Below, in pieces: positions 1-31,163 of a stretch of DNA of 64,000 bases. This DNA is from Hymenobacter sp. 15J16-1T3B. GTDB lineage: Bacteria; Bacteroidota; Bacteroidia; Cytophagales; Hymenobacteraceae. Positions within the stretch are counted from its first letter, which is position 1; the number at the start of each line of letters is the position of its first letter. The translations under genes were made by a program, and so were the position numbers. The notes under the pieces are model-generated. The model saw only the letters and a program-made list of their open reading frames with translations. It made no database searches and was not told the DNA's origin. The DNA lies in contig NZ_JAJFAV010000004.1 of NCBI RefSeq assembly GCF_020711235.1, positions 310,001 to 374,000 on the forward strand. Direction: 5' to 3'.

Positions 1-127
1 CCCCTGGTTTGTGGCCGGCCAATTCCACCCCGAGCTGAAGAGCACCGTGCAGAACCCGCACCCGCTTTTCGTGCGCTTCGTGCGCGCCGCCATTCAACAC
101 CACAAGCAGCAGGTGGCCGTGGCGTAA
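1..127 (+). CDS. pyrG: CTP synthase, C-terminal end (partial)
   Basis: Only the last 41 codons lie in the window, read from base 2 to the TAA at 125-127. The tail contains FHPELKS and PHPLFVRFV, which match the C-terminal end of the class I glutamine amidotransferase domain of CTP synthase. The His and Glu of FHPE are the His-Glu part of the glutaminase triad. CTP synthase makes CTP from UTP, ATP and glutamine in the cytosol. The next gene on the same strand is yidC, and pyrG-yidC is a familiar order in Bacteroidota, which supports the call. The 390-base gap and a palindromic repeat between them suggest separate transcription. Confidence 0.9.
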
Positions 128-145
128 GCGGCCACCACAACGGTA

Positions 146-279
146 AGCAGAACGTCATTCCGAGCTTGTCGAGGAATCTCGCGTGTTTAGCCGGATAGTA
201 AACTTCTCGTTGAACGAGAAATACGCTACCGGCCGTCAGCACGCGAGATTCCTCGACAAGCTCGGAATGACGTTCTGCT
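146..279. repeat. 134-bp near-palindromic repeat element
   Basis: Bases 146-185 and 240-279 are perfect 40-base inverted repeats. Inside them 204-211 and 213-220 form a second perfect inverted repeat (ttctcgtt / aacgagaa) on the same centre near 212, so the whole unit can fold as one long hairpin. It lies wholly between pyrG and yidC and has no coding capacity. The arm sequence (cattccgagcttgtcgagg and its complement) looks like a dispersed intergenic repeat or MITE-like element rather than a simple terminator, because it lacks a T-tract and is far too long. No clear target duplication is visible. The symmetry is read directly; its mobility is an inference. Confidence 0.8.
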
Positions 280-18310: not shown

Positions 18311-19174
18311 TTACCGGTGCTGCTGGCGGTAGGCTTCGGGCGAGTGGCCGCTGTACTTGCGGAAGTAGCGCCCAAAGTAGCTCGGGTCGTCGAAGCCCAG
18401 CTCGTCGGCCACCTGGGCCACCGTCAGGGCCGAGTGCGTGAGCAGGCGCTGGGCTTCCACCACCACCCGCTCGTGAATCAGCGCGCTGGCGGTTTTGTTG
18501 AGCACCCGGCGGCATACCGCGTTCAGGTGGTTGGCCGTCAGGTGTAGCAGCTCGGCGTACTGCTGCACGGTGCGCATCTGGCGGTAGTGTTGGTTGAGCA
18601 AAGCCCCAAACTGCCGGATCTGCTGCTGGGCCAGCGCCGCCCCGCCGGTGGCCGGGGCGGCAAAGTGCCGGGTGGCCAGCTCCAGCAGCAGCAGCAGATA
18701 GGCCCGCACCACTTCGGGCTGCGGCGGTTCCGCCGCGCGGGTTTCGGCGTGCAGCCGCAGCAACAGAGGCCGCAGCTCCGCTTCGTCGGCGGGCAGGTAG
18801 AGCACCGGCGGGTGCACCCCGTCGAAAAACGGGTACTCGTAAAGGCGCTGGCCCGGGTAGCGGAACAGGTAGAACTCGGCGCTGAAAAACACCACGTAGC
18901 CCTGCACCTCGGGCGGCAGCTGCCAGTGGTGCACCTGCCCCGGCGCCACAAAAAACAGGCTGCCCGGCCGCAGCTCGTAGGTGACCTGGTCGATGGTGTG
19001 GGTGCCTGCGCCCTCGGACACGTAGATGAGCAGGTAGAAGTCGTGGGCGTGCGGCTCGCGCACGTGCGGAAAGCGCGCCAGGTGCTCGGCCAGCCCGGCC
19101 ACGTAGTACGACTGCGGCCCGGCGGAGGGCGGAAACGAGGTCAGCGCAAGAACGGGCGGGGCGGTGGGTTTCAT
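18311..19174 (-). CDS. AraC-family transcriptional regulator
   Basis: The 287-residue protein has an N-terminal AraC-type cupin sensor domain (HAHDFYLLIYVSEGAGTHTID, LRPGSLFFVAPGQVHHW) at about residues 40-130. A C-terminal pair of helix-turn-helix motifs (LHLTANHLNAVCRR and VAQVADELGFDDPSYFGRYF) ends in the family signature KYSGHSPEAYRQ. The ATG at 19174 was chosen because the upstream in-frame codons to 19276 overlap the divergent promoter region. It is divergent from the transglutaminase-like gene, which it may regulate. The ligand is unknown. Confidence 0.9.
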   Translation of the reverse strand: MKPTAPPVLALTSFPPSAGPQSYYVAGLAEHLARFPHVREPHAHDFYLLIYVSEGAGTHTIDQVTYELRPGSLFFVAPGQVHHWQLPPEVQGYVVFFSAEFYLFRYPGQRLYEYPFFDGVHPPVLYLPADEAELRPLLLRLHAETRAAEPPQPEVVRAYLLLLLELATRHFAAPATGGAALAQQQIRQFGALLNQHYRQMRTVQQYAELLHLTANHLNAVCRRVLNKTASALIHERVVVEAQRLLTHSALTVAQVADELGFDDPSYFGRYFRKYSGHSPEAYRQQHR

Positions 19175-19247
19175 CGGCGGGCGGCAAAATAGCGGAAAGC
19201 CCGCGGCCCGCGGGGCTTTCCGCGCTGAACTAGCCCCGCGGCGGCCG

Positions 19248-19255
19248 TACCTTTG
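19248..19255 (+). promoter_or_regulatory. -7 element (tacctttg) for the transglutaminase-like gene
   Basis: An exact TAnnTTTG match 54 bases before the ATG at 19309. A CTG at 19225-19227 is a weak -33 candidate (20-base spacing). Confidence 0.55.
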
Positions 19256-19308
19256 CCGGCTGGCAGCTCGGACCAAACCCGGCGGGCTGCTGGCCGTTTC
19301 CAGGTTAT

Positions 19309-20325
19309 ATGTCCTTGCTCGTTCGTTTTACGCCGCGCCCGGCCGGGCTGCTTGCCGCCGCTGCCTCCCTGCTGATGCTCACTGCCGCCTCGCCCATCGT
19401 GCCGCGCGTGCGCACGTTTGCCTTCGATTACCAGACCACCGTGGCTGCCGCGCCGGCCGGCGCCAAGGCCCTGGACCTCTGGCTGCCTGTGCCCCACGAC
19501 GATGCCTCGCAGGACGTGGCCAAGCTGAAAATCGACGCGCCGTACCCCTACGAGGTGCGCACCGGCGAGTACGGCAACAAGATGCTGCACCTGCGCGTGA
19601 GCCCGGCGCCGGCCCAGCCCTTTGCCGTGGCCTTGCACTGCCAGGTCACGCGCCGGGAGCACATCAACCCGCTGCTGCCCAAGGTGGCTGGCGGCAAGAA
19701 AGCCCAGGAACCCGACGACCCCAACCTGAGCCGCTGGCTGGCCCCCGACCGCCTCGTGCCGCTCGACGACTCCATCCGGGTGTGGGCCCTGCGCGTGACG
19801 GCCCAAGCCGGCGCCCGCACCGACCTCGACCGGGCCCGCGCCATCTACAACCACGTGGTGAGCACCGTGAAGTACGACAAGAGCGGGCAGGGCTGGGGCC
19901 GCGGCGACATTTACTACGCCTGCGATGCGCGCCGCGGCAACTGCACCGACTTCCACGCCCTCTTCATTGGCTACTGCCGCGCCCTGGGCATTCCGGCCCG
20001 CTTCAGCATCGGTTTTCCGCTGCCCCCGGAGCGCGGCGCGGGCGAGGTCAAAGGTTACCACTGCTGGGCCGAATTCTACACCAAGCAAACCGGCTGGGTG
20101 CCCATCGATGCCTCTGAGGCCGCCAAGAACCCCGACAAGCGCGAGTATTTCTTCGGCCACCACGACGAAAACCGCGTGGAGCTGACCCGCGGCCGCGACC
20201 TGACGCTGACGCCTCGCCAGCAGGGCGAACCGCTGAACTACTTCGTGTATCCCTACGCCGAGGTCGACGGCCAGCCCTTCACCAGCCTCACGAACCAGTT
20301 CCGCTACCGCGACGCGACGGAGTAG
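19309..20325 (+). CDS. Exported transglutaminase-like domain protein
   Basis: The 338-residue protein has an N-terminal signal or anchor segment (about 11-28). An N-terminal beta domain follows (FDYQTTVAAAPAGAKALDLW). A transglutaminase-like catalytic core spans about residues 170-265: GNCTDFHALF gives the Cys, YHCWAEFY the His and WVPIDASEA the Asp of the triad. It probably acts as a protease, amidase or cross-linking enzyme in the periplasm; the substrate is unknown. All three catalytic residues are present. It is divergent from the AraC gene and precedes the accessory island. Confidence 0.87.
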   Translation: MSLLVRFTPRPAGLLAAAASLLMLTAASPIVPRVRTFAFDYQTTVAAAPAGAKALDLWLPVPHDDASQDVAKLKIDAPYPYEVRTGEYGNKMLHLRVSPAPAQPFAVALHCQVTRREHINPLLPKVAGGKKAQEPDDPNLSRWLAPDRLVPLDDSIRVWALRVTAQAGARTDLDRARAIYNHVVSTVKYDKSGQGWGRGDIYYACDARRGNCTDFHALFIGYCRALGIPARFSIGFPLPPERGAGEVKGYHCWAEFYTKQTGWVPIDASEAAKNPDKREYFFGHHDENRVELTRGRDLTLTPRQQGEPLNYFVYPYAEVDGQPFTSLTNQFRYRDATE

Positions 20326-21140
20326 CCCGCCCGGCGGCGTTGAACGACCGTCACGCGGAGCGCCGCAACGGGTGTGTTTGACCAACTGCCTCAATCCAGG
20401 TGGCGGGCAGGTTGATTCCTCGCCGGCCGACTGCTTCTTGTCGCCTGCTGTTGAGTTTGGGAGAATATTACCCAGCTAGACGCGGACGAATTGCCGAAAC
20501 AAACCGGCGGCGCGCCGATTGCAATGATGCACAGGCCCTTGCTACGGGCACGTCTTGGCGCTGTGCTGGCGGAGGCTGCAGTTGCTGTTGCCTAATCCCC
20601 AAGGATGAAAACCCTCTTCGATTTCTAGCGGCGGCAGAAGCCGCAGAATTCAGAGAAGGTAGTTGCGCGGATTTAATCTGTTGTTCTATATTGCAGCCGT
20701 CACCCGGTCGAAAACCGGCTACGCGCTCCGCTTACCTCCTTTTTACACACCTGTCTCGCAACAACTCAAGGCATTCTCCCAAATGCTTTGGGTTTGACCT
20801 TTGGCACTTGCGGCTTAGGCGCTAGCCTCGCAAGGGACAGGATGTTTGTGCGCGCCCTCCGCGTAGTGACGTGCCCTTTATCCTTTATGTTATACCCGAA
20901 GACTTCTCGACCGGAGCCGGGTGCACTACTGTTTTTTGTTCTTCGTTAGCCATTGCCCGAGCACCCGGTAACAGGTGTGGTGTTTTGCCAATCGATAAGT
21001 CGTTTCTGAATTCTTTCGGACTCTCCTAAGTCCCGCTGCGGCCAAGCTGAGCTCGGTACGTTAACCGTGCTCATTCCTGATTACCCCTGGTTCTGAACCG
21101 CATATCTACTGCTCGGCAACGAGCCGTTAATTCCTATCAT
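20326..21140. other. 815-base intergenic region at the left edge of the peptide island
   Basis: No recognisable gene, RNA or transposase remnant is seen. The base composition becomes visibly less GC-rich from about 20.4 kb. A 141-codon open frame at 20400-20825 is Cys/Arg/Ser-rich without family features and is not called. No exact TAnnTTTG element for the downstream exporter was found; tatcatttg at 21135-21143 has one extra base and overlaps the start codon. The region could hold the island's promoter, a degraded gene or an untranslated RNA. Confidence 0.4.
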
Positions 21141-23390
21141 TTGAAAACGTTTCCCTTTTACCGGCAGGTCGATACCATGGATTGTGGGCCCAGTTGCCTG
21201 CGAATGATTGCCAAGTTTTATGGATATCAACTGAACCTCAATAAACTACGAACCAGCAGTCAGGTAGGCGTGCACGGCAGCTCGTTGTTGGGTTTGAGCA
21301 AAGCCGCCGAGTCGTGCGGATTTAAGACCATAGCGGCCCGCGTCACCCTGGAACAACTGACCACGCAGGTGCCCCTGCCGTGCATTGTGCATTGGGAGCA
21401 GAAACACTTCGTGGTCGTCCACGCAGTAGGCGAATCCCGGAGCGCTTGGTTACGCAAGTTCAGGGCAGGCAAGTCAACTGCAGAGGGTAGCGCTTTGCGT
21501 CTGCAGGTGGCCGACCCCGGGCTGGGGCTGGTAAGCTATTCGGCCGCGGAATTCCTGAAAGCTTGGGGAGGGGAGCAGGCCGAAGTTCACGGTGGTGTAT
21601 GCCTGATACTGGAGCCGACTGCTGCCCTAGCCGCGCCAGACGAGCAGGAGCAGCGCTCAAAATATGGGTTGCGCCACGTCCTGAAGCAGTTAACCGATGC
21701 GCGCAAGCTCGTTGTCCAACTCTTGCTGGGCCTTCTGGTAGGCAGCAGCGTGCAGTTTATATTTCCTTTTTTAACCCAATCGTTGGTTGACATTGGAATT
21801 GCCACCAAAGACTACGGCATAGTATATACCATTCTGCTGGCGCAGGGCCTGCTGTTGATTGGGCGCCTGGTAAATGACTTTGTGAGAGGCTGGATTCTGT
21901 TGCACATTAGCACCAGAATTAATTTACGAATTCTGTCTGATTTTATCATAAAGTTAATGTCGTTGCCCGTAAGCTATTTCGAAAGAAAGACTTTTGGGGA
22001 TATTATGCAGCGGATTAATGATCATGGTAGAATCGAACAGTTTTTGACTAATCAATCATTAAATATATTGTTTTCTTTTCTGCAGCTAGTTGTATTTGGT
22101 GGGGTTATATTGATATACAGCAGAGTTATATTTATTGTATTTTTTGTTCTGTCCCTTATTTATATATTATGGACGGCTTATCTACTAAAAAAACGCAAGG
22201 TTCTAGACGCTGAGCGTTTTCAACTGGCTTCGAAAAGCCAGAATGCAATAAATCAGATCATTCAAGGTATCCATGATATTAAGCTAGCCAATGCAGAACA
22301 GCCCATGCGCTGGGTATGGGAACGAGTACAAGCCAAAAACCTGCGCCTGCAATACAAAGTGTTGTCTCTGTCGCAGTTGCAACAAACCGGGGCGTTTATT
22401 CTTAATGAAGGTCGAAACCTGTCCATAAGCTTTCTAGCTGCCAAAGCAGTCATTGATAATCAAATGACGCTGGGCATGATGCTCGCAATGCAATACATCA
22501 TTGGGCAGTTAACCGGTCCCATTGAGATGCTGGTTATGTTTATTCAAACGTATCAGGATGCCAGCCTGAGCCTAGAGCGTCTCTCGGAAGTGCACGAGCT
22601 GGATGAAGAGGATAAGTGGACGGACGCGCAGGTGGGGCAAGTGCATGCTGGCCAGAGCTTGCATCTGCGAAACGTGACCTTTGCCTACCCGAATACGCCG
22701 ACCAAACCAGTGCTGCGCAACATTGACTTGCACATTCCGGCTGGCAAAATAACGGCCGTAGTGGGCAGCAGCGGTAGCGGCAAAAGCAGCCTACTTAAGC
22801 TGCTGATGAAAACCTACGAGCCCTTAGAAGGCAGTATTCACCTGAGCAATACCAATCTGAAGCATCTTACCCACAGCTCGTGGCGGTCCAAATGCGCAGT
22901 GGTAGCGCAGGAAGGCTTTATTTTCTCCGATACGGTGGCCGGAAATATTGCGGTTGGTGACGAAACACCCGATTTGACCAAGCTACTGTATGCGGCCAGA
23001 ATGGCTAATATTTTAGAATTTATAGAAACGTTGCCGCGGGGCTTTAGTACCAAAATTGGTAGCGACGGGCAGCAAGTTAGCCAAGGGCAAAAGCAACGCA
23101 TATTAATTGCCCGTGCAATTTACAAGGAACCCGAATTTCTGTTTTTTGACGAGGCTACTAACGCCTTGGATACGGAGAATGAATCTATTATCGTTCAGAA
23201 CCTAAGCAATTTCTTTGATAATCGTACCGTTGTTATTGTGGCGCATCGTTTGAGTACGGTGCGCTACGCCGATCAAATAGTGGTAATGGAAAATGGGCAA
23301 ATAAGTGAGCAAGGTTCGCACGAGGAATTACTCCAGCAATGCGGTACCTACTGGAATTTAGTTCGGAATCAAGTAGAATTAGTAGGATAA
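21141..23390 (+). CDS. C39 peptidase-containing ABC transporter (bacteriocin/RiPP exporter)
   Basis: The 749-residue protein starts at a TTG. Residues 1-150 are a C39 double-glycine peptidase, with Gln9, Cys15 (MDCGPSCL), His89 (KHFVVV) and Asp125 (ADPG) in place. Residues about 180-460 are an ABC exporter membrane domain (FPFLTQSLVDIGI and following helices). Residues about 500-740 are the ATPase, with Walker A GSSGSGKSS, signature SQGQKQR and Walker B FLFFDEAT. This type (PCAT) cuts leader peptides after Gly-Gly and exports the core. About 20 extra residues lie between His89 and Asp125. It is followed seven bases later by the HlyD gene and precedes a double-glycine precursor, so it is very likely the island's exporter. 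Confidence 0.95.
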   Translation: MKTFPFYRQVDTMDCGPSCLRMIAKFYGYQLNLNKLRTSSQVGVHGSSLLGLSKAAESCGFKTIAARVTLEQLTTQVPLPCIVHWEQKHFVVVHAVGESRSAWLRKFRAGKSTAEGSALRLQVADPGLGLVSYSAAEFLKAWGGEQAEVHGGVCLILEPTAALAAPDEQEQRSKYGLRHVLKQLTDARKLVVQLLLGLLVGSSVQFIFPFLTQSLVDIGIATKDYGIVYTILLAQGLLLIGRLVNDFVRGWILLHISTRINLRILSDFIIKLMSLPVSYFERKTFGDIMQRINDHGRIEQFLTNQSLNILFSFLQLVVFGGVILIYSRVIFIVFFVLSLIYILWTAYLLKKRKVLDAERFQLASKSQNAINQIIQGIHDIKLANAEQPMRWVWERVQAKNLRLQYKVLSLSQLQQTGAFILNEGRNLSISFLAAKAVIDNQMTLGMMLAMQYIIGQLTGPIEMLVMFIQTYQDASLSLERLSEVHELDEEDKWTDAQVGQVHAGQSLHLRNVTFAYPNTPTKPVLRNIDLHIPAGKITAVVGSSGSGKSSLLKLLMKTYEPLEGSIHLSNTNLKHLTHSSWRSKCAVVAQEGFIFSDTVAGNIAVGDETPDLTKLLYAARMANILEFIETLPRGFSTKIGSDGQQVSQGQKQRILIARAIYKEPEFLFFDEATNALDTENESIIVQNLSNFFDNRTVVIVAHRLSTVRYADQIVVMENGQISEQGSHEELLQQCGTYWNLVRNQVELVG

Positions 23391-23397
23391 AGCGGCT

Positions 23398-24675
23398 ATG
23401 CCTCAGCAGCAAATTGCAAGACCGCCCGTTACCCATACCCACGAACTTGACGTTGTTATTTCCCGCGCGCCGTCTTGGCTGATATGGTGGGGCAGCAGTA
23501 TCGCCTTTCTCGTATTGCTGAGCTTGTTTGGCGTGGCTTGGTTTGTACAGTACCCAGATACGGTGCAGGCGCGTATGATAATCACGTCCGTACGAGCGCC
23601 CAAGCAGGTGAGTGCACGCGCGCAAGGAAAGATTGTGCGCTTGACGCACGCGGCCAACCAGCCGGTGGCGGAAGGCACGGTGTTAGCCGTTATCGAAAGC
23701 ACTGCCGACCCGCAGCAGGTGTTGGGGCTGCTACGTGGTGCCAAAGCGGTTGAGGCTGCTGGCAGTAATGCAGTGGCTGCCACCCAACACCTCAAGCAAC
23801 TCCCGCACTCCCGGCTAGGGGAAGTGCAGGCGGCTTACCTCGCGTTCATCCAGGCGGATGACGAACTAAACCGCTACAGCGGCCGCGGTACCGAAGCTCG
23901 AAAGGCGTCTGTGCTTGCTGCTAGCTTGCAACTGCTGGCCCGCCGCCGTGCCAACCTGGAAACCCAACTCGCGCTTGCACGGCAGGAGCTGGGGTTGGCA
24001 CGCAAAGAGTTTGCTGCTCAGGAGCAGTTGTTTAAGCAAGGCGTTTTGGCTCCTCTGGAATTCAACCGCTTGCAAGCCAATCAATTGCGGGGACAGGCGC
24101 CGGTAAAAAACTTGGAAATGAGTTTGTTGGATGCGCAAGCCCAGGTGCATACCGTGGAAATGGCTTTGATCGAAGTAGAGAGCCAACGGCAAGCCCGGGT
24201 TGTTGAGCAGGAACGTCGGCTGCACGAATTGGGCACGGCTATTGAAAATTGGCAGGCCAAGTACGTGGTCACCAGCCCGGCGCAGGGGACATTGATGGTG
24301 GAGCCCCTTACGCAATTCAATCAGCCGGTTGCCGTTGGGCAGCACCTGTTCACGATTGCGCCCCCGCGCCCCGAATACATTGGGGTGGTGGAATTACCCC
24401 AAAGCCGTATCGGGGAAGTCCGGGTGGGCAACGAAGCCTATGTGCACCTGGATGCCTACCCGTACCTGAAGTATGGCAAAACGGCGGGCACCGTCACGGA
24501 GCTGCAGGAACTGAGCACGAACAACGCAACCTACCGAGCTAAAATCAAACTGTATCAGCCCGGCAACAGCACCCCGGCCATGCCGTTGCACGTCGGCATG
24601 GGAGGCACGGTATTCGTCGTTACCAAAACCTCCCGCTTGCTAGAAAAGCTATTCGACAAAGCCATACGGCAGTAA
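23398..24675 (+). CDS. HlyD-family membrane fusion (adaptor) protein
   Basis: This 425-residue protein has one N-terminal membrane helix (WWGSSIAFLVLLSLFGVAWF, about 30-49). A split biotinyl-lipoyl-like domain follows (QGKIVRLTHAANQPVAEGTVLAVI). A long helical hairpin rich in Ala/Gln/Leu spans about 165-285, and a C-terminal beta-barrel domain includes YVHLDAYPYLKYGKTAGTV. These are the parts of a HlyD/NHLM-type adaptor linking an inner-membrane ABC exporter to the envelope. It lies seven bases after the C39-ABC gene and is surely co-transcribed. No outer-membrane TolC gene lies in the island, so a partner encoded elsewhere is implied. Confidence 0.93.
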   Translation: MPQQQIARPPVTHTHELDVVISRAPSWLIWWGSSIAFLVLLSLFGVAWFVQYPDTVQARMIITSVRAPKQVSARAQGKIVRLTHAANQPVAEGTVLAVIESTADPQQVLGLLRGAKAVEAAGSNAVAATQHLKQLPHSRLGEVQAAYLAFIQADDELNRYSGRGTEARKASVLAASLQLLARRRANLETQLALARQELGLARKEFAAQEQLFKQGVLAPLEFNRLQANQLRGQAPVKNLEMSLLDAQAQVHTVEMALIEVESQRQARVVEQERRLHELGTAIENWQAKYVVTSPAQGTLMVEPLTQFNQPVAVGQHLFTIAPPRPEYIGVVELPQSRIGEVRVGNEAYVHLDAYPYLKYGKTAGTVTELQELSTNNATYRAKIKLYQPGNSTPAMPLHVGMGGTVFVVTKTSRLLEKLFDKAIRQ

Positions 24676-24827
24676 GCGACTCCGCAAAACAGCTGCCGTG
24701 CTGCCGCCGCTTCTTTGGCGGAACAGGCCCCGGTTGGCAGTTGCTGAAGACTTCGCCAATAGTACTGATTGCCAACTTATTTCAATTGATTGTGCACTCT
24801 CGGCTACCGCAAAATCTGTCCGGCGCA

Positions 24828-26639
24828 ATGCGGCTCACTCATGTAAGCCGGCATCACGTGGCTGCACTCATGCTAGTGGGGGCAGGGCTGCTAGGCTCGT
24901 GTACCACAGCCAACCACTGGCAGCAGGTTGGCCACGTGCGGCAGAGTTACATCATTCGCTACTGCAATGACAGTTTAGGAACTTGCCTTACCACCAACGG
25001 GGATTTCATCCTGCGTCAAGACCGCCGGGCCTTCACCCGGAAGGAGCGCCGCGTGGCCGCCAAAAAGCTGGGGGTAGCCGCGCGACAGTTCTTGCCCCTT
25101 TTCACGGGCACCACCAACGTACCTCCCTACTACCGCCTGCGGGCGGCTTTCATTCGGCACCGGCCAGGAAGCTGGTGGCTGACGGCGGGATTCACCGCTG
25201 TAGGGGCCGGACGGTTTGCCCGCAGCATAACCCAAGCGACGGAGTTGTCGAGGGAGTATGCCTACCAAGTGCCAAACAGAGATGGGTTCCTGTACTTAGT
25301 CGCGACGGAGGCTCCCGGCAAGAAAAATGAGGGTAAGCCTCTGGTTGATCGGGCTTTCGACATGGACATGGAATTCAACGCCTATGTCTTTCCCTCGGTA
25401 CAGCCCCGCGGTGACTCCACGCTGCTCAACGTGTCAGAGCAGGTGGACCAAGCCTTTTTGGCAAGTTCCGGCGGCAATTACCTGGCCCCGCTTATTGCGC
25501 TGCTCGACGCCCGCCGCAATCCGGCCCTGATCAACGACGCGTCGCAGCATCCGCTGTTGCAACAACTGTTAGTGCAGTATCATGCAATGGCGGGCAACCA
25601 GGATTCTGCCCGGTATTTCCGCTTGTGCAGCAAAAAGGCACTGCTGCGCACCAGCGTCCCGTTGCCCGCAGAACCGGATTTTCCTCATTCGTCGGTACCG
25701 CCGGCAATTGAATCGTTTCAGACCGAACCGGCGGTTCAGGACATTTTGCAGCGCGCTGCTTCCGCCAAGGCATTGCTTATCAACGAACACCATGGCTCGG
25801 CCCACCACCGGAGTCTGCTGGCAGCCCTGCTGCCTCAGGTCTATGCATTGGGTTACAGATACTTGGCTTTGGAAACCCTAAGCGACTCTGGTTTCAACGA
25901 ACGCGGTTTTCCGCTGATGTCTTCGGGCTTTTACACCCGCGAGCCAACATTTGCCAACCTGGTGCGCACCGCCCACCGCATTGGGTTCAAACTCGTTGGC
26001 TACGATGACATGCGTGCGGAAAACCGGGAGCTAAGTCAGGCCCAGCACTTGTTGCAGGCGCTGAAAACAGACCCCCAAGCTCGGGTAGTCGTGTATGGAG
26101 GCGGGCAGCATATGGAAGTCAGGCCAGGCACCCAGGCTGGAGCGCCGGGTGGGGCTAAAAAATGGATGGGCCAGTACTTGGCCGAGCTAAGTCAGTGGCC
26201 TCTGACCAGCGTCAATCAGACGTATCTGGAAGATGTTTCCTTGCCGGCCGTTGACTCGCTCCAGCCCGGAAGCGCTACTGCGCTGTACAAAATGGTAAAC
26301 AACCGTCGGGCCCCCTTAAGAGCGGTGCAGGACGTATATGTGCGTAATAAAATGATGGTCAGTTATTTACCGGTTCCTTACTTCGACCAAAGTCAAACTC
26401 CTTGGGTGAATCTACCCTTGCCTGCGCCCAGCAGCCAAGCCGCCGGGCGTCAGCGACAATTGATCCAGGTTTACCTAGCCCGTGAGCTTAACCGCTACCC
26501 CGATCCGGTGCCGGTTTATACCGCTGAGCTAACTCCTCGACAACAACAGCTGCATCTGAGACTCTGCCCTGGCCAGTACAGCTACAAAATCTATGACGAA
26601 GCGGCTGAGGTGATAACCGGAAATTGGAATATAGAATGA
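24828..26639 (+). CDS. Lipoprotein with C-terminal erythromycin-esterase/ChaN-like domain
   Basis: The start at the ATG 24828 gives a lipoprotein signal with lipobox LLGSC, for a 603-residue product. The N-terminal half (about 20-300) is not recognised and includes RRAFTRKERRVAAKKLGVAA and FDMDMEFNAYVFPS. The C-terminal half has INEHHGSAHHRSLLAALLP, YRYLALETLSDSG and VVVYGGGQHMEVRPG. This pattern (His-His, a conserved Glu after a strand, a late His) fits the EreA/ChaN/TIKI metal-dependent superfamily, which hydrolyses esters or peptides or binds haem. It lies 152 bases after hlyD, on the same strand. An immunity or product-processing role is inference. A longer TTG start at 24741 is less likely. 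Confidence 0.6.
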   Translation: MRLTHVSRHHVAALMLVGAGLLGSCTTANHWQQVGHVRQSYIIRYCNDSLGTCLTTNGDFILRQDRRAFTRKERRVAAKKLGVAARQFLPLFTGTTNVPPYYRLRAAFIRHRPGSWWLTAGFTAVGAGRFARSITQATELSREYAYQVPNRDGFLYLVATEAPGKKNEGKPLVDRAFDMDMEFNAYVFPSVQPRGDSTLLNVSEQVDQAFLASSGGNYLAPLIALLDARRNPALINDASQHPLLQQLLVQYHAMAGNQDSARYFRLCSKKALLRTSVPLPAEPDFPHSSVPPAIESFQTEPAVQDILQRAASAKALLINEHHGSAHHRSLLAALLPQVYALGYRYLALETLSDSGFNERGFPLMSSGFYTREPTFANLVRTAHRIGFKLVGYDDMRAENRELSQAQHLLQALKTDPQARVVVYGGGQHMEVRPGTQAGAPGGAKKWMGQYLAELSQWPLTSVNQTYLEDVSLPAVDSLQPGSATALYKMVNNRRAPLRAVQDVYVRNKMMVSYLPVPYFDQSQTPWVNLPLPAPSSQAAGRQRQLIQVYLARELNRYPDPVPVYTAELTPRQQQLHLRLCPGQYSYKIYDEAAEVITGNWNIE

Positions 26640-26640
26640 T

Positions 26641-26748
26641 ATGAAAGCTGAGATGAAAGAATTAGGGGTTAAGCAGAAAATATTTTTTCCATGTAAAACG
26701 GTTGCCTTTTGCAATGGCTCCTGTGATTATCGGAGTTGGGGCTTCTGA
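26641..26748 (+). CDS. Possible 35-residue Cys-containing small peptide
   Basis: An ATG begins one base after the lipoprotein stop and opens a 35-codon frame ending in TGA at 26746-26748. The peptide has a basic N-terminal half (MKAEMKELGVKQK) and three cysteines at 18, 24 and 28 (CKTVAFCNGSC). The close coupling resembles that of the 67-residue ORF further downstream in the island. The frame is short and the region AT-rich, so chance is possible. No family is recognised. Confidence 0.25.
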   Translation: MKAEMKELGVKQKIFFPCKTVAFCNGSCDYRSWGF

Positions 26749-27020
26749 AAGAGCTCGTTTAGTTACTCATTATGGAAATGTTTTAAAACAATGCCAGGTT
26801 CGGACAAAATAAAATTGTAACGACGAAATAGTTAATTATAAAAAATGCAGTAATGGTGCATTTAATTGCGTTGAAAATACTTGACGCAAAACAGAATTGC
26901 TATGTCTAAAATTTATGTTTAAAATATTTTTTATTAATTCTATTATTGGTCTTGATTTGCATGATTGCTTTGTACTAGTATTGCATCACTAGCAAGCCAG
27001 AGCAACGAAGCCGAGGTATT
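26749..27020. promoter_or_regulatory. AT-rich leader/promoter region of the precursor gene
   Basis: This is the most AT-rich stretch of the window and directly precedes the precursor gene. A near-consensus promoter is TTG at 26946-26948 with ttgctttg at 26965-26972 (one mismatch to TAnnTTTG, spacing 16). A purine-rich gaggt lies shortly before the ATG at 27021. No other gene is seen. Confidence 0.35.
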
Positions 27021-27209
27021 ATGCTACCAAAAAAAATTATGTTAAAGTTTGAAAACCTTAGCGAAGACAAATTCCAAAAGCTGTCCGAGGAAGAACAGAA
27101 CAACGTTCTCGGCGGTAAATTCGACAACGAAGGCGCTACGGCCGCTGACTTCACGAAATACAGCGACGGCAGCTGGGCCAAAGACGGCGAAGCCCAGTGG
27201 GATAACTAA
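27021..27209 (+). CDS. Double-glycine RiPP precursor peptide (probable graspetide precursor)
   Basis: The 62-residue peptide has an N-terminal acidic/amphipathic leader with ENLSEDKFQKLSEEEQNNVL ending in Gly31-Gly32. That is a classical double-glycine cleavage site for the C39 exporter. The 30-residue core (33-62) contains seven Asp/Glu and six Thr/Ser/Lys, including KFDNEGATAADFTKYSDG. This is the composition expected when an ATP-grasp ligase makes side-chain ester or amide links. No Cys is present. An alternative start at 27039 would shorten only the leader. It is followed by its own terminator, so it may be expressed at a higher level than the maturases. The ring pattern is unknown. Confidence 0.8.
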   Translation: MLPKKIMLKFENLSEDKFQKLSEEEQNNVLGGKFDNEGATAADFTKYSDGSWAKDGEAQWDN

Positions 27210-27221
27210 TATCCGCTGAAT

Positions 27222-27264
27222 AAAAAGGGCAAGACTTGTGGTTTGTACAGGTCTTGCCCTTTTT
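27222..27264 (+). terminator. Terminator directly after the precursor gene
   Basis: A perfect stem (aaaaagggcaagac at 27222-27235 with gtcttgcccttttt at 27251-27264) has a 15-base loop and a T-run. It begins 13 bases after the precursor stop and separates precursor from maturases. Confidence 0.88.
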
Positions 27265-27291
27265 ATATAACTTATTAATGCTTCAAATAGC

Positions 27292-27320
27292 GCTCAATCT
27301 AAATATTGCTTAGATTGAGC
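27292..27320. promoter_or_regulatory. 10-bp inverted repeat upstream of the ATP-grasp gene
   Basis: A perfect inverted repeat, gctcaatcta (27292-27301) and tagattgagc (27311-27320), with a nine-base AT-rich spacer. It has no T-tract and lies 40 bases before a -7 element. It could be an operator or an RNA hairpin. Confidence 0.5.
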
Positions 27321-27359
27321 TGAAAATGCTCTTGGTGGTGCTAGTTGTTATGTGTTTGA

Positions 27360-27367
27360 TAGATTTG
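27360..27367 (+). promoter_or_regulatory. -7 element (tagatttg) for the maturase operon
   Basis: An exact TAnnTTTG match 72 bases before the ATP-grasp ATG at 27440. TTG triplets occur at 27332 and 27345, but at non-ideal spacing. Confidence 0.5.
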
Positions 27368-27439
27368 AAAAATAGAGCAAGAAGTTGATGCTATTACTGA
27401 TAGTAATTTACGGTTAGGATACCGACACTTTTCTCAGCC

Positions 27440-28459
27440 ATGATCTTAATTCTAAGCACCAGTGGTGAATACACTACCGACATAGTAATCGATTGGCTAG
27501 ATGCCAAACAGCAACCTTGGATCAGGATCAATGACGATGACATTGCTGCAAGCCACGAAATCGTGGTAACGGAGGGCGTGTGCGAGGAGCCTGCAACGGG
27601 TACCGGGGGCCAGCCGGGAGGATTTACGGTTAACGGGGAGTGGGTAGCTCTGGAGAGCATCAAGACGGTCTGGTTCAGGAAGTATGGTTTCTATAGCACA
27701 GAGCATCTGATCAAGAAGTTAGAGACCAGCTACGGGGTCGACACGGCCATACATCTGCAGAGCGAGTACACGGCATTTGCACGGGCCTTTGCGGGTGCTT
27801 TTGATCATGGAGTCAAGTGGTTGACCGATCCATCGGTGCTGCCGATCAACAAAATTACTACGCTGCGTTTAGCAAAATCCTTGGGGTTGGACGTGCCCCG
27901 AACTTTGCTTACCAATTCGAAAGCCCAGGTGGAGGCTTTCGTAGCGCAAGTAGGACCGGTCATCACCAAGTGCACACGGGATATGTTCGGTATCAAATCC
28001 CGAGTCGATGAGGCTACTAATACCACATATTATTTTACGATGTATACGCAGCTGCTGACGGCAGAAATAATAACTCAGCTACCAGCGTATTTTTTGCCAT
28101 CTACCATTCAGGAGTACATTGATAAAGCCTTTGAGATACGATGCTTCTACCTGGACGGAGCAGTATACAGCATGGCCATCTTCTCGCAGGACCACGAACG
28201 AACAAAGCTGGACTTCCGGAAATACGATGTGCACAAGCCCAATCGGATGGTGCCCTTTGTTCTGCCCGCTGAGGTTTCGGACAAACTGTGTCAATTGATG
28301 ACGCGTCTGGGTTTGAATACCGGGTCGATTGACTTTATGGTGTCTGCTTCTGGAAAGTATTATTTCTTGGAAGTAAACCCCACAGGCCAGTTCGGTTTTT
28401 TGTCGACGGCCTGTAATTATGGGCTTGAAGAAAAAGTTGCAGATTACTTAATGAGGTAA
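27440..28459 (+). CDS. gwsG: ATP-grasp peptide maturase of a grasp-with-spasm system
   Basis: This 339-residue protein is a graspetide-type ATP-grasp ligase. The N-terminus MILILSTSGEYTTDIVIDWL and the WFRKYGFYS motif (about residue 77) match the grasp-with-spasm group. The ATP-grasp core includes VITKCTRDMFGI, QEYIDKAFEIRCFYLDG and, at the end, GSIDFMVSASGKYYFLEVNP with the Mg-binding Glu and Asn. Such enzymes use ATP to form ester or amide links between Asp/Glu and Thr/Ser/Lys side chains of a precursor core. It has its own -7 element. Two bases after its stop a small ORF starts, and then the SPASM maturase. The substrate is presumably the 62-residue precursor upstream. Confidence 0.85.
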   Translation: MILILSTSGEYTTDIVIDWLDAKQQPWIRINDDDIAASHEIVVTEGVCEEPATGTGGQPGGFTVNGEWVALESIKTVWFRKYGFYSTEHLIKKLETSYGVDTAIHLQSEYTAFARAFAGAFDHGVKWLTDPSVLPINKITTLRLAKSLGLDVPRTLLTNSKAQVEAFVAQVGPVITKCTRDMFGIKSRVDEATNTTYYFTMYTQLLTAEIITQLPAYFLPSTIQEYIDKAFEIRCFYLDGAVYSMAIFSQDHERTKLDFRKYDVHKPNRMVPFVLPAEVSDKLCQLMTRLGLNTGSIDFMVSASGKYYFLEVNPTGQFGFLSTACNYGLEEKVADYLMR

Positions 28460-28461
28460 GT

Positions 28462-28665
28462 ATGAACAAGGGCAATGAGCAATTTCGTAACAGGATAGGA
28501 AAGGACGGTCAGGAGGTTTTCCCGGTTGTTTATCATGTTATGGAAGAAATGCCAGGTGGCGACAAGAGTGACCGTGTAAAAAACAGGAGTGATTATTATA
28601 ATAATAATATATTTACACCGGTGTCTTTTAAGAAGGTAATTTCAAAAATTAAATTTTCATACTGA
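28462..28665 (+). CDS. 67-residue protein of unknown function between the two maturases
   Basis: This small ORF starts two bases after the ATP-grasp stop and ends one base before the SPASM maturase start, so translation coupling is almost certain. The protein has a hydrophilic N-terminus (MNKGNEQFRNRIGKDGQEVF), a middle VVYHVMEEMPGGDKSD with a Gly-Gly, then DYYNNN and a basic C-terminus (SFKKVISKIKFSY). It has no Cys and no membrane helix. The EVF...VMEEMPGGD part faintly recalls a motif of Bacteroidota TonB-like proteins, but this may be chance. It could be a second precursor, a leader-binding helper or a small accessory subunit. Confidence 0.6.
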   Translation: MNKGNEQFRNRIGKDGQEVFPVVYHVMEEMPGGDKSDRVKNRSDYYNNNIFTPVSFKKVISKIKFSY

Positions 28666-28666
28666 T

Positions 28667-29755
28667 ATGCTATTTGCGAAGCAGTTTGCTCCAGGCAATA
28701 CTTTTGAAGTGTATTTCAAATTATTCGCTTGCTGCCTGCCAGTGCGCGGAGCACAGCGCAGCGTTGTGTGTGATTTGCAAAGAGCCAGTTATGATTATAT
28801 TCCTAACGCGCTGCAAAGCATATTAGAGCAAGACCATCTGCTCTCGGTCGGAGAGGTGTTGAATAAGTATCCGACTCAGCACGCGGATACGATACTTGGG
28901 TATTTTGATTTTTTGGTGGAGAAAGAGTACGGGTTCTATACGCAGCAGCCCGAGCTTTTTCCGAAGATGAGCTTGGCGTATAACCATCCCAAGCTGATTA
29001 CCAATGCCATCCTCGACATCGGGGCGCAGAGTAAATACAACGTCTTGCGGGCCATTGCCCTGATTGAGCTGACTGGGTGCGAGCATCTGCAGGTGCGCAG
29101 CTTCGTAGCACTGACGGAAGGGTTTTTCCAGGAGTTGGATCAGCAAATCAAGACGTCGCGCTTTCGATCCATTGAAATTATAACGAAGCACAGCCCCGGG
29201 CTAAGCGAGGACTTCTGCCGACTTCTGTTGCAACAGAATCCGCGCATAAGTCAAATCATTGTACACTCTGCTCCGGACGAAAAACAGGAGTTTATTTACA
29301 ACGAGGTGAGCCAGTGCTTAATTCACGCCCGGGCTCCAATTGATTCGGAAGCTCACTGCGGCTACATCCATCCGGCGCTATTTTCGATTCACCTGTCGAC
29401 GTTTACCGAAGCGCAGCAATTTAATTCGTGTTTGAACCGCAAAATTGCCGTTGACCAGTTCGGAAACGTCAAAAATTGTCCGAGTCACGCGGCTTCCTAT
29501 GGCGCTGTAGACGACCAGGCCAGCTTACTGCCGATTGCGCAGCAGAAACGCTTCCAGGAAATATGGGGCGTGAGCAAGGACCAAATCAACGTCTGCCAAG
29601 ACTGCGAATTTCGTTACATCTGTACTGATTGTCGGGCCTACGTAGAGGCGGGCCCCCTTTCCAAACCGGCTAAGTGTACGTATGACCCTTACGCCGCTGC
29701 TTGGCAGCAGCCGCAGACTACAATGGCTAACCAAAGCCGCTTGGTGCCGGCGTAA
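28667..29755 (+). CDS. gwsS: SPASM-domain peptide maturase of a grasp-with-spasm system (no radical SAM motif)
   Basis: This 362-residue protein matches the SPASM-type partner of grasp-with-spasm ATP-grasp ligases. The N-terminus has YFKLFACCLPVRGAQRSVVC and DLQRASYDYIPNAL, typical of the group. The C-terminal SPASM-like part carries Cys255, Cys271, Cys310, Cys313, Cys319, Cys322 and Cys337 (VCQDCEFRYICTDC), able to bind an auxiliary Fe-S cluster. No CxxxCxxC radical SAM motif is present, so it is not expected to make a 5'-deoxyadenosyl radical. It probably helps the ATP-grasp enzyme or performs an unknown step. It is the last gene of the maturase operon and is followed by a hairpin. Confidence 0.83.
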   Translation: MLFAKQFAPGNTFEVYFKLFACCLPVRGAQRSVVCDLQRASYDYIPNALQSILEQDHLLSVGEVLNKYPTQHADTILGYFDFLVEKEYGFYTQQPELFPKMSLAYNHPKLITNAILDIGAQSKYNVLRAIALIELTGCEHLQVRSFVALTEGFFQELDQQIKTSRFRSIEIITKHSPGLSEDFCRLLLQQNPRISQIIVHSAPDEKQEFIYNEVSQCLIHARAPIDSEAHCGYIHPALFSIHLSTFTEAQQFNSCLNRKIAVDQFGNVKNCPSHAASYGAVDDQASLLPIAQQKRFQEIWGVSKDQINVCQDCEFRYICTDCRAYVEAGPLSKPAKCTYDPYAAAWQQPQTTMANQSRLVPA

Positions 29756-29776
29756 GCATGCCGCTGTTTGCCCTTC

Positions 29777-29812
29777 CCGCAACCCTGATCCGCTAGTAGA
29801 TCAGGGTTGCGG
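29777..29812 (+). terminator. Hairpin at the end of the peptide island
   Basis: A perfect 14-bp stem (29777-29790 with 29799-29812) and an eight-base loop begin 21 bases after the gwsS stop. No T-tract follows. Up to 29960 nothing else is seen except a possible taccttgc promoter-like element at 29932. Confidence 0.65.
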
Positions 29813-29960: not shown

Positions 29961-31163
29961 ATGCAGATACCCTTTACCCCCGTTGTGGTGCTCTTGCTAG
30001 CCGTGGTGGCGCAGGCCGTCTTTGCGGCCGGGCTGCTGTGGCTGGCCCCGCACAACCGCCGCCCCAACCGCCTGCTAGCCCTGCTCATGCTGGCCATTGC
30101 ACTCTGGATTCTAGATGGGTTTTTTCGCGCGGCCAACGTGTACGGGCAGAATGCCAACTGGTACTTCGCCCCGATTTACTACTCTTTCGCCTTCGGGCCG
30201 CTGCTCTACTTATACGTGCGCAGCCTCACCAACCACGCCTTCCGGTTGCGCCCGCGTCAGCTCTGGCACTTCGCGCCGGTGCTGCTGCAGGCCGGGCTCT
30301 ACGCCACGCTGCGCCTGACCGATTATCCCACGCGGCTCTGGTTTTGGGAGCACGTGCATCGGCCCTACACCTACCGCCTGGAGTTTATCGGCACTTGGCT
30401 GTCCTTGATGGTGTACTTAGCGCTGAGTCTGCGCCTGCTGCGCCAGTACCGCCGCTACCTCGACGACAACTTCTCCGAAACCTCCCAGCTGCGCCTGCGC
30501 TGGCTGCGCGTGTTGCTGGTGCTGCTGGCTGTCGTCAGCGCGCAGTGGCTGGTGGAGGTGGTGCTGCGTGAGTTTTTCGGCCTGTATTACCGCTACGACT
30601 ACTCCACCGAACTACTTGGCGCGGTGGTGTTCTGCATTGGCGTGGTAGGCCTGCGTCAGGCCGATATGCAGGCCGTGCATTTCGCCGCCGACGTTGAGCC
30701 ACTTGGCAAAGCACCCACCGCGCTGGTGTGGGCGACTGAAACCGCACCGCCAGCTGCGCCCGGTGGCCCGATGCCGGGCGCGGCCCGCAGCCAGGCCCAA
30801 GCTGCTGCGCGGCAGCAGCCGGCCGTTGATGCGCGGGTGCTGGAGCGCATCCGTCGGGCCTTGGAGGACGAGCAGCTCTTCCGCAACCCCACGCTCACCC
30901 TGGCCGAGCTGGCGGCTCACACCGACCTGCCCACTCGGCTAATTTCTTTTACCGTCAACCAGGGCTTCGGCAAGTCCTTCAACGACTTGGTCAACGGCTA
31001 CCGCGTGGCCGAGGTGCAGCGCCGCCTGACCCGCACCGACGACGCCCAGCGCCTGACCCTGCTCGGCATTGCCTTCGAGAGCGGGTTCAACTCCAAGACT
31101 ACCTTCAACCGCATTTTCAAGCAGGTTACCGGCGTGGCACCGAGCGAGTTTGGCAAGCAGTGA
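29961..31163 (+). CDS. Membrane-anchored AraC-family regulator
   Basis: The 400-residue protein has an N-terminal membrane sensor of about seven helices (residues about 8-235; e.g. VVVLLLAVVAQAVFAAGLLW and LLALLMLAIALWILDGFF). An Ala/Pro/Gln-rich linker follows. A C-terminal AraC DNA-binding domain spans about 300-400, with LTLAELAAHTDLPTRLISF as first helix-turn-helix and LLGIAFESGFNSKTTFNRIF as second, ending VTGVAPSEF. It is a one-component membrane-linked transcription factor, common in Bacteroidota. It lies directly downstream of the peptide island on the same strand, after a hairpin. A link to the island is possible but not shown. Confidence 0.9.
   Translation: MQIPFTPVVVLLLAVVAQAVFAAGLLWLAPHNRRPNRLLALLMLAIALWILDGFFRAANVYGQNANWYFAPIYYSFAFGPLLYLYVRSLTNHAFRLRPRQLWHFAPVLLQAGLYATLRLTDYPTRLWFWEHVHRPYTYRLEFIGTWLSLMVYLALSLRLLRQYRRYLDDNFSETSQLRLRWLRVLLVLLAVVSAQWLVEVVLREFFGLYYRYDYSTELLGAVVFCIGVVGLRQADMQAVHFAADVEPLGKAPTALVWATETAPPAAPGGPMPGAARSQAQAAARQQPAVDARVLERIRRALEDEQLFRNPTLTLAELAAHTDLPTRLISFTVNQGFGKSFNDLVNGYRVAEVQRRLTRTDDAQRLTLLGIAFESGFNSKTTFNRIFKQVTGVAPSEFGKQ

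Follow-up and report, generated by a model that had tools for sequence, protein, structure and literature searches.

A grasp-with-spasm peptide locus of Hymenobacter sp. 15J16-1T3B with a SPASM protein lacking the radical-SAM motif

Hymenobacter sp. 15J16-1T3B carries a grasp-with-spasm peptide locus on contig NZ_JAJFAV010000004.1, within a stretch of 64,000 nucleotides (positions 310,001 to 374,000 of the forward strand) that was analysed as a whole and is referred to below as the window. At window positions 21141-29755 the locus encodes, in this order, a C39-ABC exporter, an HlyD adaptor, a lipoprotein, a double-glycine precursor, an ATP-grasp ligase (GwsG), a small protein and a SPASM protein (GwsS). 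The locus is a complete, ordinary example of an already described class. The useful addition made here concerns GwsS: this SPASM partner is without the motif of radical SAM (S-adenosylmethionine) enzymes, and its two sets of cluster cysteines behave separately and are missing from some relatives. With a probability of about 60%, the locus is read as a graspetide locus in which GwsS would deliver the substrate to GwsG and activate it, GwsG would close the rings, the small protein, of the LPL family, would serve as a third subunit, and the C39-ABC exporter with HlyD would trim and export the product. The product of the cluster is probably a small, ring-closed peptide that is exported.

The seven open reading frames (ORFs) named in the initial annotation were found on the plus strand at the coordinates it gave, all with open frames. 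That annotation had assigned the ATP-grasp and SPASM proteins to the grasp-with-spasm families from recognized motifs; the profile searches place both proteins inside these families, GwsG with 270 bits against TIGR04192 (cut-off 230) and GwsS above the cut-off of TIGR04193. GwsS lies 207 bp downstream of GwsG, and one grasp-with-spasm locus was detected in the genome.

The designation of the SPASM protein as a maturase, in the sense of an enzyme, was not supported. The CX3CX2C motif was found in none of 140 distinct GwsS sequences, window included, while the same scan detected it in all 15 SPASM proteins used as controls; these controls were weak TIGR04193 matches in other SPASM-bearing proteins, and their radical-SAM status is taken from the motif together with a SPASM match. 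The 140 sequences derive from 165 profile matches, of which 162 were at least 300 aa long, after those with identical last 250 residues were dropped. Against TIGR04085 the window GwsS scores 25.8 bits, just below the cut-off of 27, and all eight auxiliary-cluster cysteines of the SPASM domain are present.

An AlphaFold2 model of GwsS built from 79 sequences (mean predicted local distance difference test, pLDDT, 91.9) consists of strands at residues 16-45, helices at 47-85, a short half barrel of alternating strands and helices, and the SPASM part. The N-terminal domain of the model looks like an RRE, a PqqD-like domain of winged-helix fold, and may bind the leader. The best Foldseek matches among solved structures are radical-SAM/SPASM maturases, namely the sactipeptide maturase 5why (2.6e-5), which we take to be CteB, and SuiB (5.7e-5); in contrast to these, GwsS is without CX3CX2C. 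CteB and SuiB are SAM-dependent and have N-terminal leader-binding domains. Leader-bound TbiB1 gave a template modelling (TM) score (TMt) of 0.60 but a weak E value (0.067). From sequence and model, GwsS is read as a putative leader-binding scaffold for the ligase and not as a redox maturase.

In the proposed sequence of events, translation would yield a precursor whose leader has about 26 residues and Gly-Gly at its end. The RRE-like N-terminal domain of GwsS, a predicted radical-SAM/SPASM homologue without the radical-SAM site, would hold the leader and offer the core to GwsG, so that GwsS would act as substrate-delivery and activating partner and not as a redox enzyme. GwsG would use ATP to phosphorylate Asp/Glu side chains and then link them to Ser/Thr/Lys side chains, the links being omega-esters or omega-amides with an expected change of -18.011 Da each. 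The small LPL protein would form a third subunit that either links GwsS to GwsG or activates the latter. Cleavage after Gly-Gly would fall to the exporter's C39 domain, the exporter and HlyD would jointly secrete the product, and a terminator behind the precursor gene would leave the precursor in excess over the enzymes.

The distribution of the SPASM cysteines bears directly on the role of GwsS. The eight near-invariant residues form two sets, one of Cys231, 255, 271 and 322 and one of Cys310, 313, 319 and 337. Both are complete (4+4) in 114 of the 140 sequences, and 3+4 occurs once; the first set is missing (0+4) in 17, and eight sequences, forming the no-cluster class, keep at most two cysteines of the first set and none of the second (1+0 in seven, 2+0 in one). 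The sets are thus lost as units, the pattern expected of two [4Fe-4S] sites, and we infer two such clusters in GwsS. The window GwsS belongs to the two-cluster class. Counts from the 80 loci that were found with patterns containing SPASM cysteines are biased toward two clusters: the loci found by cysteine patterns gave 85 distinct GwsS, 82 of them two-cluster and three one-cluster, and the 54 other GwsS comprise 32 two-cluster, 14 one-cluster and eight no-cluster forms.

The ligase is retained across these changes. GwsG occurs directly upstream of GwsS in 104 of 115 two-cluster, 16 of 17 one-cluster and seven of eight no-cluster cases, some loci ending early. In an alignment of 123 GwsG of at least 280 aa, from 127 found beside GwsS, residues K177, R234, D298 and N313 are kept in 123/123 and E311 in 122/123, and the ATP-grasp residues are intact in the partners of all three cysteine classes. 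Since the cysteine sets were lost while the GwsG residues persisted, redox chemistry is probably not what makes GwsS indispensable. At GwsG position 260 the no-cluster class has Lys (7/7) and the other classes Arg, with one gap.

Several observations weigh against the scaffold role, the bias of the pattern-found loci just described among them. The six 5why/SuiB chains matched by the GwsS model have E values of 2.6e-5 to 4.7e-4 but TM scores of only 0.27-0.39, so that the fold match is carried by parts of the structure. Conservation within GwsS is highest in the SPASM part, with a mean top-residue share of 0.675 against 0.571 for the RRE and 0.423 for the barrel. Outside SPASM, Cys23 and Cys138 are kept in 124/140 and 118/140 GwsS, across all three classes. 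Where both clusters exist (115/140, window included) hardly any variation is seen in the ligands, an indication that the clusters still do something there; in this majority they probably matter at least structurally, and a SAM-free redox role is conceivable. In one-cluster loci, moreover, several of the small proteins diverge, and the LPL proline is missing from some of them.

The same features could indicate that GwsS is a true second maturase, which would use its two Fe-S clusters for redox reactions on the core that need no SAM, either before the rings are closed or afterwards. Its eight cysteines, complete in so many sequences, the conservation of SPASM and the kept Cys23 and Cys138 would all fit such an enzyme, and Makarova et al. 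(PMC8939145) call the SPASM protein a radical SAM enzyme, with C-C, C-O or thioether bonds as possible products. This alternative is considered unlikely, given that CX3CX2C is missing throughout, that 25 of 140 sequences lack one or both cysteine sets beside an intact GwsG, and that thioethers based on Cys cannot be general, there being no Cys in the window precursor or in 27 of 74 other cores.

How the clusters were lost was followed in trees. In a whole-GwsS tree computed without the eight cysteine columns, by a quick method that gave long-branch warnings, the forms with two, one and no clusters nest within each other, which takes two changes (Shimodaira-Hasegawa-like approximate likelihood ratio test, SH-aLRT, 99 and 95). 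The GwsS tree without SPASM columns requires 14 changes, few of them forced, and does not settle the order. On the GwsG tree there are 12 changes; for the labels two-cluster and one-cluster, starred branches make at least four of them unavoidable. That the reduced-cluster forms arose once was nevertheless not rejected on it (approximately unbiased, AU, test, p 0.552), the tree held to such an origin being 8.67 log units better. One stepwise loss of clusters is favoured by these comparisons, though partner exchange or repeated loss may have occurred instead. On one Flavobacterium contig (L044, which seems to be identical with the contig of L120) two GwsG/GwsS pairs lie in tandem; the GwsS of one pair is a two-cluster form, that of the other a one-cluster form.

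A more specific version of the scaffold role is put forward tentatively, at somewhat less than even odds. In it, GwsS proteins are pseudo-radical-SAM scaffolds whose dispensable Fe-S clusters were shed stepwise (two, one, none), and the ligase is switched on by GwsS as leader receptor together with LPL as a leader in trans. Two of these steps have a basis in sequence, the near all-or-none loss of the cysteine sets and the nested whole-protein tree; that LPL substitutes for a leader in trans is a guess from the loose likeness of its motif to the microviridin leader motif. If GwsS is a leader-delivery scaffold, natural relatives without the cysteine sets, such as that of the L057 locus, should work without iron or SAM, the family name misleads, searches for SAM-dependent chemistry will fail, and reconstitution will need three proteins.

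A GwsG profile of 22 relatives matches the microviridin-type structures 7m4s (AMdnB), 5ig9, 7mgv (CdnC) and 5ig8 with E values of 1.5e-52 to 5.1e-43, and GwsG aligns with these ligases end to end; 5ig9 and 5ig8 are presumably MdnC and MdnB. By eye, several GwsG seem to have a shorter version of the helix with which MdnC contacts the leader, at the positions where we take its contact residues to lie. The systems differ in the leader and in the partners: the microviridin motif Phhx(1,2)h (PFFARFL-type) was found in none of 79 leaders of relatives, nor by eye in the window leader, and GwsS and LPL are extra. With the motif missing from all 79, something other than microviridin-type recognition should read the leader. 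It could still be that GwsG reads the leader itself, as in microviridin systems, and that GwsS and LPL only chaperone or stabilize it, an arrangement consistent with the end-to-end alignment and with rosaritide, where MirC copurifies with MirB and MirB alone is insoluble (PMC13097080). This is judged quite improbable in view of the leaders and of the RRE-like domain, which is better conserved than the barrel.

The initial annotation had listed the small protein encoded between the ligase and SPASM genes and left it unassigned; its presence stands, and by profile it is the LPL partner. A small frame lies between GwsG and GwsS in 20/20 loci of a seed set, and 19 small proteins hand-picked from these loci (L044 omitted) gave a first profile whose sole match among 489 window ORFs is the LPL frame (E 2.6e-4). 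With a profile of 81 relatives, window excluded, this frame is again the best of the 489 (E 3.1e-7, next E 2), scoring 25.8 bits against at most 12.8 for 2000 of its own shuffles. Among 76 loci of relatives, the first profile matches the frame between GwsG and GwsS in 62 at E < 1e-3, and the enlarged profile in 71, most of those sequences now being part of it; in the remaining five an LPL-like frame was read by eye, weakly in L131. The consensus has LPLNYQFLEK near the start and FYKPISKI at the end, and only 31/81 LPL proteins carry the strict, microviridin-leader-like motif. We take the family to be the LPL family of PMC8939145, which is placed directly upstream of the SPASM gene, the match being one of description; that paper already hints that the LPL motif resembles the one in microviridin leaders.

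The precursor scores weakly against public models (TIGR04149 15.9 bits, cut-off 25). The double-glycine leader ascribed to it was nonetheless borne out by a profile of the 79 leaders of relatives, window excluded, in which the precursor is the best of the 489 window ORFs (E 1.3e-7, next E 3), at 26.9 bits against at most 13.6 for 2000 own shuffles. From the leader length in relatives, Met7 of the ORF is the preferred and probable start. The comparison set was gathered beside 76 + 20 pairs of relatives: 107 candidates by pattern, 86 after 21 implausible ones were discarded by hand, 79 distinct leaders, and 74 cores without near-copies. Behind the precursor gene lies a hairpin of -29 kcal/mol (z -8.66; 0/200 shuffles equally stable), which is likely an intrinsic terminator or attenuator, although it was not among the results of a consensus terminator scan.

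The expectation that the product is predictable from the locus was not borne out. The core has seven possible donors (S/T/K) and seven possible acceptors (D/E) in its 30 residues, and its best score against 80 other cores is 37, where shuffles have a median of 34 and a 95th percentile of 42, so that ring number and connectivity are not derivable from sequence. The calculated monoisotopic mass of the unmodified core is 3323.428 Da. A candidate core motif resembling T.Y..[DN]G[ST], seen by eye in the window, in the genus-mate G591 and in L104, was dropped, the window core scoring no better than shuffles. Among the 74 cores [DN]G[ST] is enriched (19/74, shuffle mean 9.7) and T.[YFW] is not (27/74, shuffle mean 24.2); such patterns are too loose to give connectivity. 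The likely precursor of G591 (L160 1042-1215, minus strand) is encoded upstream of GwsG on the opposite strand and has 57 aa, KGG and the core YTMNTFTVYSNGTSNSNDGTGCQDGVCND (leader profile E 0.0083). EF-hand-like loops (for example DSNDNGKPDPGEC and DDTNDNGTLDAGEC) were seen by eye in several cores among the precursors of L083, L092, L117, L135 and L137, and could be calcium sites or ring acceptors.

Relatives were collected by an alignment search that gave 538 in one scan, 80 of which were kept; a search with the window protein alone retrieved none, and some loci overlap between the 80-locus set and the 20-locus seed set. The present locus adds one example to this large family. In 76 of the 80 loci, GwsG is found upstream of GwsS at a distance of no more than 600 bp. 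Of the four misses, L122 ends at a contig edge before any GwsG, GwsG is about 1.2 kb upstream in L071 and immediately downstream on the opposite strand in L106, and L107 shows none. TIGR04193 is exceeded in 12/395 genomes of the phylum and 4/204 of the family, the own genome being counted in both. Seven loci outside the usual Bacteroidota (L063, L069, L072, L073, L078, L101 and L122) stem from metagenomes, in bins with the labels Acidobacteria, Thermoanaerobaculum, Blastocatellia and Gemmatimonadetes.

Branch 5 of Makarova et al. (2022; PMC8939145) comprises ATP-grasp, SPASM, LPL and lipoprotein, with the SPASM protein labelled a radical SAM enzyme. The window locus resembles it in the ATP-grasp ligase, the LPL directly upstream of the SPASM gene and the GG precursor, with C39-ABC, HlyD and lipoprotein nearby; unlike many branch 5 precursors, which have conserved Cys, the window precursor is Cys-free, and the window lipoprotein is likened to the cluster 23 lipoprotein of branch 5 by description only. 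Among graspetides, group 14 always occurs with a SPASM protein and often, by co-occurrence, with an NHLM-type transporter; groups 21 and 15 are characterized, and no characterized member of group 14 is reported in the parts of PMC13097080 covered. The window locus apparently belongs to group 14, the co-occurrence with SPASM being the one feature that fits. Partner-dependent graspetide synthetases were described in 2026 in the same paper, where MirB (rosaritide) requires MirC and CorB (corallotide) requires CorC. A ligase relying on a strictly co-occurring partner, shown there, is proposed here, with a SPASM protein in place of a SurA/PPIase-like protein and an oxygenase. In the literature searched, coverage of which was limited, neither an experimental study of grasp-with-spasm chemistry was found nor a remark that the motif is missing from the SPASM partner. 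The NCBI family name says SPASM and not radical SAM, which suggests awareness of this among the curators.

Table 1. Features of the locus (window positions; residue numbers for domains)
Feature	Position	Strand	Basis or remark
C39 peptidase-ABC exporter, PCAT type, 749 aa	21141..23390	+	Pfam domains; 4ry2 alignment
HlyD-family adaptor, 425 aa	23398..24675	+	Pfam HlyD_3 46.2 bits, cut-off 22.2
Lipoprotein, 603 aa, C-terminal half weakly ChaN/Tiki-like	24828..26639	+	LGSC lipobox by eye
Precursor, 26-aa leader ending GG, 30-aa core KFDNEGATAADFTKYSDGSWAKDGEAQWDN	27039..27209	+	leader profile; ORF opens 27021
Hairpin, uninterrupted 19 pairs (two G-U), 3' arm ending in five U	27222..27264	+	folding
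GwsG, ATP-grasp graspetide synthetase, 339 aa	27440..28459	+	TIGR04192
LPL-family small partner protein, 67 aa (FPVVYHVM ... FKKVISKI)	28462..28665	+	LPL profile
GwsS	28667..29755	+	TIGR04193 302 bits, cut-off 175
GwsS, RRE-like domain	residues ~16-85		border read from model
GwsS, radical-SAM-like half barrel without CX3CX2C	residues ~86-230		border read from model
GwsS, SPASM with 8 Cys	residues 231-346		border read from model

That the locus combines a C39 exporter with HlyD in a single block was upheld, all Pfam domains exceeding their cut-offs (exporter: Peptidase_C39 94.8 bits, ABC_membrane 98.3, ABC_tran 104). The exporter has a C39 domain fused to an ABC transporter, as in peptidase-containing ABC transporters, and its residues 3-741 align with 4ry2, presumably PCAT1, at 319 bits. 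By eye it contains QVDTMDCGPSCL and HFVVVHAV, which we take to be the C39 catalytic motif. The initial annotation pointed out that the locus has its own exporter; this is not unusual, since matches above 250 bits to this exporter occur in the fetched DNA of 41/80 loci of relatives, with the C39 motif pattern in 29/80 and HlyD in 29/80, 55/80 loci having 6 kb on both sides.

The lipoprotein probably starts at 24828 (ATG) rather than at 24741. It matches PF04187 at E 0.027, below the cut-off, and a model made without an alignment reached a pLDDT of only 35. Family matches occur in 51/204 genomes of the family, own genome counted, and 14 of 15 neighbourhoods of lipoprotein relatives are without GwsG/GwsS; the fifteenth, in G591, places the lipoprotein behind HlyD. 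Being widespread and mostly outside such loci, it was excluded from the core parts, and its tie to the locus is uncertain.

The G+C content is 0.51 across 20800-29800 and 0.665 in the remaining window, so that an AT-richer island coincides with the peptide locus and horizontal acquisition is suggested. Together with the rarity of over-cut-off GwsS in the family noted above, this would also fit an acquired island that is silent here and whose product is no longer made; with seven open frames, intact catalytic residues and a stable hairpin behind the precursor, such silence is regarded as highly improbable. A transglutaminase-core protein is encoded just upstream of the exporter (19309-20325; Pfam 1.1e-28), and AraC-type regulators flank both sides (18311-19276, minus strand; 29961-31163, plus strand).

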